From assembly GCA_018268695.1 (NCBI GenBank), contig JAFDWD010000857.1:1-7448 (forward strand): a stretch of 7,448 nucleotides of DNA. Direction: 5' to 3'. Under the pieces are notes generated by a model that saw only the letters and a program-made list of their open reading frames with translations, searched no databases and was not told the origin of the DNA. Source of the DNA: Actinomycetota bacterium (GTDB lineage: Bacteria; Actinomycetota; Thermoleophilia; Solirubrobacterales; 70-9). The position numbers and the translations under genes are program-made. The stretch's first letter is position 1, and the number at the start of each line of letters is the position of its first letter. Below are positions 822 to 5,588 of the stretch, piece by piece.

Positions 822-875
822 CTTCCGGGCGGTTGCGGGGCGGTGTTGTGCCGGCGGTTGCGGCCGTCCGAGAGG

Positions 876-935
876 CGTCCTGGGCGTCTCATGGAGGTCC
901 TGGCAGGCTGTGACCTCCATGAGACACCCAGGACG
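876..935 (+). repeat. 60-bp hairpin A: 24-bp arms, 12-nt loop
   Basis: The left arm (876..899) and right arm (912..935) are complementary at 23 of 24 positions, and the one exception (plus-strand C/A at 885/926) becomes a G-T wobble on the minus strand. The loop (900..911) is CTGGCAGGCTGT. The loop and the innermost stem bases match hairpin B (1321..1380) read on the opposite strand, while the outer stems do not. No T-run follows on either strand, so it is not a textbook intrinsic terminator, although a 24-bp stem could still terminate or stabilise RNA. It lies 67 bp upstream of the proC start. It could be a REP-like palindrome, a terminator or a structured-RNA element. Confidence 0.85.
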
Positions 936-986
936 TGAGGGGTTCGTGGGAGAGGCGGCACAGGGACGTGAGGAAGTCGGACCTAC

Positions 987-1067
987 GTGACGGTCCCGTT
1001 AGGTTCCGGGGCCTCGTCACGGTGGGTGTGGAGCTTTACCGTCGCATGGGGACGGTTTCTCTCCACA
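987..1067. other. Two adjacent stem-loops
   Basis: The first stem (987..1020) has GTGACG paired with CGTCAC, and inside it CCC paired with GGG. The second (1027..1067) is two-tiered: TGTGGAG (1027..1033) pairs with CTCCACA (1061..1067), then a symmetric 4x4 internal loop (CTTT/TTCT), then ACCGTC (1038..1043) pairs with GACGGT (1051..1056) around the loop GCATGGG. The internal-loop architecture looks more like folded RNA than a simple terminator. The strand and any transcription are unknown. Confidence 0.5.
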
Positions 1068-1089
1068 GCAAAGTCCTGAGCGGTGGGTC

Positions 1090-1282
1090 CGTGACGAAGA
1101 CGCCGGGAACTCCACGCTCCCTTGCGCCTTTCGTCCCTTTCCGTGGCCTTCGGTGAGGGTTCCGCCGTACCCTGGGGAGCGCGGGCGACCTTGGTGAACC
1201 TATTGATAACGCAGGTCGCCCGCGCTCGGTCGGTGTCGGGAAAGGCGCACGTAAGCGTGGAGTTCGTGGCGTCTCCCGCACG
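1090..1282. repeat. Long nested imperfect inverted repeat (193 bp)
   Basis: The sequence at 1098..1131 is the reverse complement of 1241..1274 at 29 of 34 positions, with one further G-T wobble on the plus strand. The longest shared runs are AGCGTGGAGTTC, AAAGGCGCA and GGCGTCT. CGTG (1090..1093) and CACG (1279..1282) extend the pairing outward. Inside lie a 5-bp stem AGGGT/ACCCT (1156..1173) and the perfect 15-bp hairpin at 1177..1227. A transcript would form a long rod with an asymmetric central bulge (45 nt on one side, 13 on the other) and a capped apical stem. As DNA it would look like a 177-bp MITE-type element with 34-bp terminal inverted repeats. I see no clear target-site duplication. 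The pairing itself is certain; the interpretation is open. Confidence 0.7.
1177..1227. repeat. Perfect 15-bp hairpin with 21-nt loop
   Basis: GAGCGCGGGCGACCT (1177..1191) is exactly complementary to AGGTCGCCCGCGCTC (1213..1227). The loop (1192..1212) is AT-richer than its surroundings and contains TATTGATAAC. The hairpin is nested, slightly off-centre, inside the larger inverted repeat. No T-run follows on either strand. Confidence 0.75.
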
Positions 1283-1320
1283 TCTCACGGGACGGCGTCG
1301 GACTTCCGACACTCCTTCAT

Positions 1321-1380
1321 AACCCGGCCGTCCCGGCCACGGCCACAGCCTGCCCGGGCCGTGGCCGGGACGGCCGGGTT
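1321..1380 (-). terminator. 60-bp hairpin B: perfect 24-bp arms, 12-nt loop
   Basis: The arms 1321..1344 and 1357..1380 are perfectly complementary over 24 bp and very GC-rich, ending in AACCC/GGGTT. On the minus strand the 12-nt loop reads CGGGCAGGCTGT, 11 of 12 identical to the loop of hairpin A. It lies 55 bp beyond the DUF5996 stop, where a terminator would be expected. There is no T-run, so the terminator call rests on position and stem strength. It may instead belong, with hairpin A, to a palindromic repeat family. Confidence 0.55.
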
Positions 1381-1435
1381 CGCCGCAGGCTCTTGCGTCC
1401 CTTCCCCCGGGCGCCGGCTTCCCCCGGCCCCGTCC

Positions 1436-4423: not shown

Positions 4424-4449
4424 GACCCCAGAGCCAAGCACATCATGTC

Positions 4450-4492
4450 GACGGGCCGAAAACCGGACTACCTGACGGGTTTTCGGCCCGTC
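4450..4492 (-). terminator. Hairpin at the end of cca (15-bp stem)
   Basis: GACGGGCCGAAAACC (4450..4464) is perfectly complementary to GGTTTTCGGCCCGTC (4478..4492), with a 13-nt loop. On the minus strand the stem begins inside the cca stop codon. It is followed by GACATGATG, not by a T-run. The position suggests a terminator or transcript-stabilising hairpin between cca and pgeF. It shows no loop similarity to the hairpins at 876..935 and 1321..1380. Confidence 0.6.
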
Positions 4493-5588
4493 AACGTCGC
4501 TGTTCGAGGGCGTGGTGGAGCTCGTCGGCGCGGGTCGGGGCGTTGCCGTCGAGCTTCGCGGCCAGGGCGCGCTCCAGGGCCTCGCCGATCGCCGGGCCCT
4601 CGAGGCCCGCCGCCGTCAGGTCGGTCCCGGTGATCTCCAGGCGGACCTCCCGCCATCCCAGCCAGTCGTCGAGCCAGGTGGCGCCCGCGGCGCGGGCGAG
4701 GACGAGCTCGATCGGGTCGTGGCCGCGGGCCATCCGCACGCCCTCGGACGGAAGCGCCGGGACCGAACCGGCGAACGGGTCCCTCCACGGCCCGAGCGCG
4801 GCCGCCAGGATCGCCTCGGCACGGTCGGCCTCCCCTGCCCAGGGCAGGGCGGCGAGCAGGCGGTCGACGTCTCGGGCGAGCGCGAAGGACTCGCCGCCCT
4901 CGCGCGGCTCGACCAGTCCCCAGCCCGCCAGCAGTTCGAGCGCCCGCACCGCGCTCGCTTCCTCGGCCAGCTTGCGCAGCTCCGCCCAGCGCCTCTCCAC
5001 GGTCACCATCCGCAGGTCGGCGGCCCGCAGCAGCTCTCGCGTCCCCGGCTCGATCGCGAAGCCGAACCTCGCGGCGTAGCGGGCCGCCCGGATCCCCCGG
5101 GTCGGGTCGTCGACGAACGAGCCCGCGTGGATGGCCCGCAGGACGCCCGCCTCGAGGTCGGCCTGGCCGTCGTAGGGGTCGATCAGCTCGCGCGGTTCGG
5201 CCAATCCCACGGCCATCGCGTTGACGGTGAAGTCGCGGCGCGCCAGGTCAGTGCGGATCGGGGCGCCGAGCTCGACCGTCGGCAGGGCACCGGGGCGCGC
5301 GTAGCTCTCGCGCCGCGCGGCCGCGATGTCGATCTCGTGGCCGTCGAGGTCCACCTTCAGCGTGCCGAACCGCGAGTGGGCGGCGAGCGCCTCCGCCCCG
5401 AGGGCCCGTCCCAGCGCCGCCGGGTCCCCCTCGACAACGAGGTCGATGTCGGCACGGCCCCTGCCCAACAGCAGATCCCGCACCGCGCCCCCGACCAGGT
5501 AGACCGGATCGGGCGCCATCGCCTCCACCTCGGCGAGCTCCGGATAGGCGGCGGCGAGCGCCTCGGCGAGTTCGTCTCCGCTGGTCAT
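4491..5588 (-). CDS. cca: CCA-adding-type tRNA nucleotidyltransferase, class II
   Basis: A class II poly(A) polymerase/CCA-adding-family enzyme that builds or repairs the tRNA 3' CCA end using CTP and ATP. With the ATG at 5588 the protein is 365 aa. It shows the head-domain motif LVGGAVRDLLLGR (31-43), the metal-binding DID in ADIDLVVEGD (46-55), RRDFTVNAMA (117-126) and the neck motif DPTRGIRAARYAARFGF (161-177). The poorly conserved Ala/Leu/Arg-rich C-terminal half has no recognisable HD phosphohydrolase motif, as in many Gram-positive CCA enzymes. Sequence alone does not separate full CCA-adding from A-adding or C-adding variants or a poly(A) polymerase. A GTG three codons upstream (5597) is an alternative start. 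The gene is divergent from the deacetylase, with about 45 bp between starts. Confidence 0.9.
   Translation of the reverse strand: MTSGDELAEALAAAYPELAEVEAMAPDPVYLVGGAVRDLLLGRGRADIDLVVEGDPAALGRALGAEALAAHSRFGTLKVDLDGHEIDIAAARRESYARPGALPTVELGAPIRTDLARRDFTVNAMAVGLAEPRELIDPYDGQADLEAGVLRAIHAGSFVDDPTRGIRAARYAARFGFAIEPGTRELLRAADLRMVTVERRWAELRKLAEEASAVRALELLAGWGLVEPREGGESFALARDVDRLLAALPWAGEADRAEAILAAALGPWRDPFAGSVPALPSEGVRMARGHDPIELVLARAAGATWLDDWLGWREVRLEITGTDLTAAGLEGPAIGEALERALAAKLDGNAPTRADELHHALEQRR

Follow-up and report, generated by a model that had tools for sequence, protein, structure and literature searches.

The two inverted hairpins that prompted this analysis are the ends of one member of a multicopy, clade-restricted repeat family, the A-B element, a high-copy DNA repeat dispersed through the intergenic DNA of a small set of uncultured actinobacteria. 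Both ends carry a near-invariant loop on stems that differ by compensated changes, the loop is the most conserved part of the hairpin, and elements are present or absent at orthologous intergenic gaps. We consider it rather probable that the A-B element is a putative non-autonomous, REPIN/MITE-like mobile repeat whose loop would be the feature by which its folded single strand is recognised.

Anatomy and distribution of the A-B element

Hairpin A (876–935, plus strand) and hairpin B (1321–1380, minus strand) lie in a stretch of 7,448 nucleotides, hereafter the window. By arm comparison, the arms of hairpin A (876–899 and 912–935) are 96% paired, with a single mismatch of C885 against A926, and those of hairpin B (1321–1344 and 1357–1380) are 100% paired. 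The original prediction of two inverted 60-nt hairpins, each with 24-bp arms and 12 nt between them, was thus exact, as was their spacing of 385 bp. The loops are CTGGCAGGCTGT for A (900–911, plus strand) and CGGGCAGGCTGT for B (1356–1345, minus strand). The only inverted repeat that we found between the two ends in the window is the 20-nt hairpin centre (896–915 and 1341–1360, 85%), and exact GGCAGGCTGTG occurs in the window at two sites only, hairpins A and B. A covariance model built from 54 hairpins scored A at 71.8 bits (877–934) and B at 82.1 bits, both being among the model's own 54 sequences. As also predicted, the 385-bp spacer (936–1320) holds further palindromic DNA: a 43-nt imperfect inverted repeat (1090–1132 and 1240–1282, 81%) encloses a perfect one (1177–1191 and 1213–1227), so that the core (1090–1282), a part that differs between elements, is in the window a 1177–1227 palindrome on a 43-nt imperfect stem. 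Folded as single-stranded DNA, 876–1380 gave z = −15.6; as RNA, 850–1400 gave z = −10.9 for the plus and −12.5 for the minus strand.

The element sits between two minus-strand genes, a proC-like gene (pyrroline-5-carboxylate reductase, 71–808, Pfam PF14748 and PF03807), with its 5′ end on the far side of the A end, and a DUF5996 gene (1436–2353, Pfam PF19459, E 1.1e-81), whose 3′ end adjoins the B end. Outside the hairpins we saw by eye, among the copies listed, degenerate tandem units of about 30–40 bp. On the A side of the window this is GGCCGTCCGAGAGG (862–875, plus strand), by eye a degenerate version of a CCGTCCGAGATG-type unit; genome G002 has such units in repeated form outside its A hairpins (again by eye and among the copies listed). 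On the B side, an array of about one and a half units (1381–1432, minus strand), matched by eye to the AAGGGAYG..GGCGCC-type units outside the B hairpins of relatives, extends almost to the DUF5996 stop codon. No Rfam model matched the window at its gathering score, and the best sub-threshold matches over 780–1460 were microRNA-type hairpin models. Elsewhere in the window, at 4447–4497, there is a stand-alone palindrome, GACGGGCCGAAAACC...GGTTTTCGGCCCGTC, that resembles a two-way terminator; its family occurs in the window and in all six related genomes described next, and in some A-B elements it forms the core.

The closest relatives of the window, loci L001–L006, were found with the DUF5996 protein (94% identity for L001, 80–83% for L002–L006) and belong to six draft metagenome-assembled genomes, G001–G006 (Actinomycetota SZAS isolates; Solirubrobacterales 70-9 and RYN_247). 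The pattern GGNCNNGGCAGGCTGTGNCC, which comprises the loop core plus bracketing bases, matched exactly 70, 142, 154, 50, 42 and 16 times in G001–G006, and a reversed-pattern control matched in none of them. The exact pattern was absent from the other 44 genomes of the family (6 of 50 positive) and from the other 226 of the order (6 of 232 positive). The covariance model found at least 109 matches in each of five of the genomes, 109 being the number of candidates scored, and 99 in the sixth, and none, under stricter filters, in the family's other 44. The many further copies expected by the original prediction are therefore there, including in G006, with its few exact matches and many by covariance model; several of its copies have an A-C mismatch near the loop that lies outside what the exact pattern allows. 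In G001, G002, G005 and G006 many of the hairpins are no more than a few hundred bases from the end of a contig, so the assemblies probably break at the repeat and undercount it. A literature search, with most subscription journals outside its reach, found no description of it.

The hairpins fall by motif into two stem types, A (CGTCCYGGGCGYCTC...) and B (GAYSCGGCCNTCTCG...). The expectation that the outer stems would be unlike each other was borne out between A and B. Each stem type is nevertheless found in many copies, and when aligned the two resemble diverged versions of one hairpin, A being mostly short of one pair. In 40 stretches of G002 and G003, A was mostly found with B, loops inward, 239–848 bp apart. 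Among 49 inward-facing pairs closer than 1 kb, 24 were A-B, 24 were B-A and one was classed as B-B; neighbouring A and B hairpins shared an orientation in two cases, L127 and contig C53 of G005. Thus, with these three exceptions, wherever both ends were detected they were one A and one B facing inward (48 of the 49 inward-facing pairs joined the two types), as ends of one element should be. Of 56 gaps with hairpins, 16 had just one detected end. Our scripts required a 12-nt loop with at most 1–3 mismatches in its core, so divergent ends were missed, an example being the A end in L004, whose loop by eye is one base short.

A further palindrome was found inside 41 of the 49 pairs, of at least 10 kinds by seed motifs, and most kinds also occur outside A-B pairs; some cores (GATGGGCCGAAAA...TTTTCGGCCCATC) resemble two-way terminators. 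No coding capacity was seen in A-B elements. Inward-facing pairs spaced from 848 bp to a few kb did not occur in the 40 stretches of G002 and G003, nor did any above 609 bp in the G005 and G006 stretches. Within a genome, whole elements are 71–94% identical among the copy pairs listed; none of these approached 100% (94% at best), which weighs against taking present-day movement as established. Similarity between copies often starts and stops near the hairpins, some runs continue for 100 bp or more past them, and comparison of copies established no sharp common boundary.

The same genomes hold other palindromes. An intergenic family, GTTCGCACTT...AAGTGCGAAC, occurs in L003, L006, L116, L123, L127 and L129, in several cases with an A hairpin some 100 bp away. 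Many different palindrome families are present in G005 and G006. A second hairpin with a conserved loop and variable stem, made of GACCCT, the loop GARCGAACCTCCC...GTTCGTGAGTGA and AGGGTC, was seen as six motif matches (L112 at 4397, 8261, 8664 and 18922; L167 at 10856; L177 at 18500) and as nine palindromes, with no Rfam gathering match to it in L112, L167 or L177. L112 also carries a c-di-AMP riboswitch (10653–10797, RF00379, 69 bits).

Loop conservation and stem covariation

In the alignment of 54 hairpins, 90.7% of pair cells were standard pairs, compared with 76.4% after shuffling and 34–45% when slid. Both sides had changed in 20 of 25 pairs, and the covariation score was higher than in any of 500 shuffles; further pair types were unremarkable in number (35 versus 31.9, with 66 of 500 shuffles as high). 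Across 91 distinct hairpins, the inner 20 pairs were 95.4% paired against 69.1% (sd 0.75) after shuffling, with double-sided changes in 17 of the 20. Loop position 2 was G or T in nearly all of these, and position 6 was A in 85 of 91. As the hairpins had been collected by their loop, we also selected palindromes by their stem. They came from an open scan for palindromes across the 40 stretches fetched for loop matches, and the stem motifs were drawn from loop-selected hairpins: of 96 palindromes with an A- or B-like stem, 93 contained the exact 11-nt loop core. Among hairpins picked with at most two mismatches in the loop core, mean identity between A and B was 93.5% in the loop, compared with 42–45% in the arms and 32–37% in the flanks.

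The conserved loop with compensated stems, as originally proposed, is thus a property of the family. The accompanying claim, that this reflects selection on a folded form rather than copying of a fixed sequence, is supported in its first part, given the covariation, and fails in its second, because the sequence is copied too (71–94% alike, among the copies listed). Since whole elements are copied within genomes, the pattern is that of a folded-form constraint acting on a copied family. A loop that stays unchanged while the stems change in matched pairs suggests that the folded form is probably recognised by some cellular factor.

Double-sided changes can also arise with no recognition at all. 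Template switching during replication, an established mechanism of quasipalindrome correction, copies one arm into the other, leaves the loop untouched and creates double-sided changes by itself. The clade is rich in near-perfect palindromes (9.5–10 long ones per 100 kb in the fetched G005 and G006 contigs, L155–L194), which counts in favour of this explanation. We nevertheless judge this explanation improbable, because it offers no reason for a loop that is 93.5% identical between A and B when the flanks are not, and leaves both the pairing of A with B and the insertion of whole elements unexplained. For comparison, relatives G049 and G032 had 0.7 and 0 long near-perfect palindromes per 100 kb in ten-contig samples (L203–L222).

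The loops might instead be conserved for each other. Because the two hairpins are inverted, their loops are complementary on one strand, and a kissing interaction between them could close the element with no protein; in 31 of the 49 pairs the loops are identical and hence offer 12 complementary nucleotides. Were this the constraint, variants should be coupled between the ends. Position 2 matched in 36 of 49 pairs against 36.1 expected within genomes, which is no coupling, and in all eight pairs whose loops vary at some other position the variant was confined to one end, so that we regard kissing loops as very improbable. A folded form read through its loop stays our preferred reading.

Genomic placement, presence and absence

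Placement relative to gene ends, a check suggested with the original prediction, was examined in the 40 hit-selected stretches, L001–L006 and the window, with genes called by a codon-usage script whose calls in the window agree with the open reading frames bearing Pfam domains. None of 108 hairpins lay in a called gene; 12 were at stretch edges, and the remaining 96 were in gaps between called genes, of which 58 were convergent, 29 tandem and 9 divergent. The preference for convergent gaps was also seen over 650 kb of G005 (seven contigs) and 100 kb of G006, picked for size and hits, where hairpins occupied 9 of 116 gaps between convergent genes, 4 of 501 tandem gaps and none of 115 divergent ones. 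Eight gaps between convergent genes had just one detected hairpin, and in each of them it was sense to the outer gene. In tandem gaps 14 of 29 hairpins were sense to the 3′ end of the outer gene and 15 were otherwise; in divergent gaps none of nine was.

The preference for convergent gaps is also compatible with a transcribed 3′-end RNA element, whose hairpins and core would stop, process or protect mRNA, perhaps with an RNA-binding protein that may bind the hairpins through their loop, and whose spread would be secondary. Given the inward direction of the loops, two transcripts converging on the element would each first meet a hairpin with loop CKGGCAGGCUGU. The bias towards convergent gaps in both sets (the first of them hit-selected), the orientation of all eight single hairpins, the compensated stems and the terminator-like cores (GATGGGCCGAAAA...TTTTCGGCCCATC) all speak for such an element. 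Mismatched pairs add a hint of a strand-specific fold. Read on the loop-sense strand, they comprise 38 A-C, 11 G-T and 47 others, or 24 A-C against 9 G-T when counted as column-genome events, and an A-C on this strand is a G-U on the opposite one, so the loop-antisense strand may be what folds; as one column supplies 17 of the 38 A-C mismatches, the bias is a hint only. The favoured strand, however, counts against the RNA model, as its hairpin is the one that the outer gene's transcript meets second. The orientation in tandem gaps (14 of 29 sense, 15 not) and the nine of nine non-sense hairpins in divergent gaps likewise argue against it, as does the lack of any match to a T-tract terminator or a sigma-70 promoter in the window's gap. 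The repeat may have a role in the transcript, but as an account of the family we hold a primary RNA element to be unlikely, and the comparison of orthologous gaps weighs further against it.

Orthologous gaps could be compared in 28 cases (32 two-sided comparisons less two self-comparisons and two reciprocals; 51 one-sided ones were not used). A loop hairpin was detected in both genomes in three of these; in the other 25 the relative had none that we detected, and for 20 of the 25 its gap was 172 bp or less, below the shortest hairpin spacing seen. In L004, the plainest example, a whole A-core-B unit with outer units, including a unit of the A-side outer type within the inserted DNA, stands between two tightly spaced same-strand genes; these are homologues of the window's Cu-oxidase_4 gene (yfiH-like) and Ala_racemase_N gene (yggS-like), and at the same site in five relatives the two genes are 0–41 bp apart. 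The element in the window's own gap is absent from L003–L006. The L001 contig stops inside a B hairpin at the equivalent place, and in L002 the A end is beside DUF5996, so the element is reversed there. By eye, neither the L004 insertion nor the window gap had a clear target-site duplication. An element undetected at most orthologous gaps, and once inserted between two tightly spaced same-strand genes, weighs against an RNA function at gene ends and in favour of the mobile-repeat reading.

Comparison with known repeats and search for a mobiliser

MITEs and BOX/ERIC-type repeats are dispersed, modular sequences of a few hundred base pairs with no coding capacity. A-B elements share these features, no coding capacity having been seen, and differ in that their two ends have no more in common than the hairpin loop and a portion of the stem, and in that no autonomous partner was found in the G002/G003 and G005/G006 stretches. 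IS200/IS605-derived elements are marked by a Y1 transposase and by subterminal hairpins with cleavage guides. The hairpins of IS605 elements have one orientation, whereas those of A-B elements are inverted; a further difference is that we found no Y1_Tnp in the six draft genomes. What the A-B element would have in common with IS200/IS605 ends and with REPs read by TnpA is the proposed step itself, a single-stranded DNA hairpin recognised by loop bases, as set out in the sections of PMC8266576 drawn on here. There, loop bases were needed by the TnpA-REP enzymes of Stenotrophomonas and Marinomonas and not by that of E. coli (PMC8266576).

The closest parallels are REPINs and BIMEs, which consist of paired inverted REPs according to the parts of PMC3116915 and PMC8266576 consulted. 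Like these, A-B elements are extragenic palindromes in inverted pairs at high copy number (49 inward-facing pairs, none of 108 hairpins in genes), combine different versions, as E. coli y and z REPs are combined in BIMEs, and are predicted to fold as single-stranded DNA or mRNA; REPINs and BIMEs too have been proposed to be non-autonomous mobile units (PMC3116915, PMC8266576). Unlike them, the A-B element has 24-bp stems, a shared 12-nt loop, a spacing of 239–848 bp and an exchangeable palindromic core, and lacks both GTAG and a detected Y1 transposase. GTAG was missing from all 136 hairpins when windows of 14 nt across each foot were read on both strands. Against the dimensions listed for GTAG REPs (stem 5–13 bp, loop 2–20 bp; Table 1 of PMC3733652, a source used in part), the 12-nt loop fits and the 24-bp stem is outside the range. 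The consulted portion of PMC3733652 also describes CGTC-tagged REPs, palindromes 3′ of genes, mostly head-to-head dimers, with stems of 8–9 bp, loops of 4–5 bp, CGTC as a terminal tag and apparently no dedicated transposase. Many A hairpins likewise start with CGTC, a tetranucleotide that 53 of 136 hairpins have at their outer foot; unlike the tag, it is the paired foot of the A stem, within the 24 bp in aligned A hairpins, and the stem of 24 bp and loop of 12 nt differ.

The link to a RAYT/TnpA-type transposase suggested by the original prediction did not materialise. Y1_Tnp (PF01797) was found in none of the six repeat-bearing draft genomes, where an assembly gap could hide one, and in three of the 50 family genomes, all three without the repeat; the search itself worked, with hits in 5 of 14 control genomes, E. 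coli included. With neither GTAG nor a Y1 transposase in the six draft genomes, we conclude that the A-B element is not a RAYT-type REPIN, and reject a RAYT/IS605 origin. Retro-copying was set aside because RVT_1 was present in one of the six genomes only. Among the other families, IS110 was present in one genome, Transposase_mut in two, resolvase in four and DDE_Tnp_1 in five; rve, the sole other family tried that occurs in all six, has 1–3 copies in each, which proves nothing. No phage matched the window query. Twenty plasmid records matched at most 9% of it, at E 0.004 or worse and many over hairpin B, and six viral contigs with the loop pattern paired only 7–11 of 20 arm positions and are not such hairpins; phage and plasmid origins were accordingly rejected.

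Taken together, our preferred model is as follows. A full copy is bounded by an A-stem and a B-stem hairpin that face inward. The 12-nt loop, nearly invariant (position 2 G or T), is the same at both ends, and the DNA between them usually includes an exchangeable palindromic core. An enzyme acting in trans, whose existence we infer from the loop, would recognise the folded single strand, either single-stranded DNA at the replication fork or a transcript, mainly via that loop; the stems would then need only to pair. The element would be copied or moved into intergenic DNA and would persist mostly where two genes converge. A stronger version, which we offer as speculation and think unlikely, is that this is a bacterial mobile repeat of a new kind, with ends that would be defined by a loop borne on a long stem free to change, with an enzyme from outside the Y1/HUH family reading those ends as single strands, and with a core that could be swapped like a cassette.

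The REP-type repeats treated in the consulted part of PMC3733652 are either tied to RAYTs or short-stemmed with no known mobiliser. The A-B element would add to these a testable recognition code, consisting of a near-fixed 12-nt loop, a 24-bp stem that is free to vary if it pairs, and two partnered stem types. As the family resides in a clade with no detected Y1 transposase, it makes RAYT-free movement of palindromic repeats directly testable.
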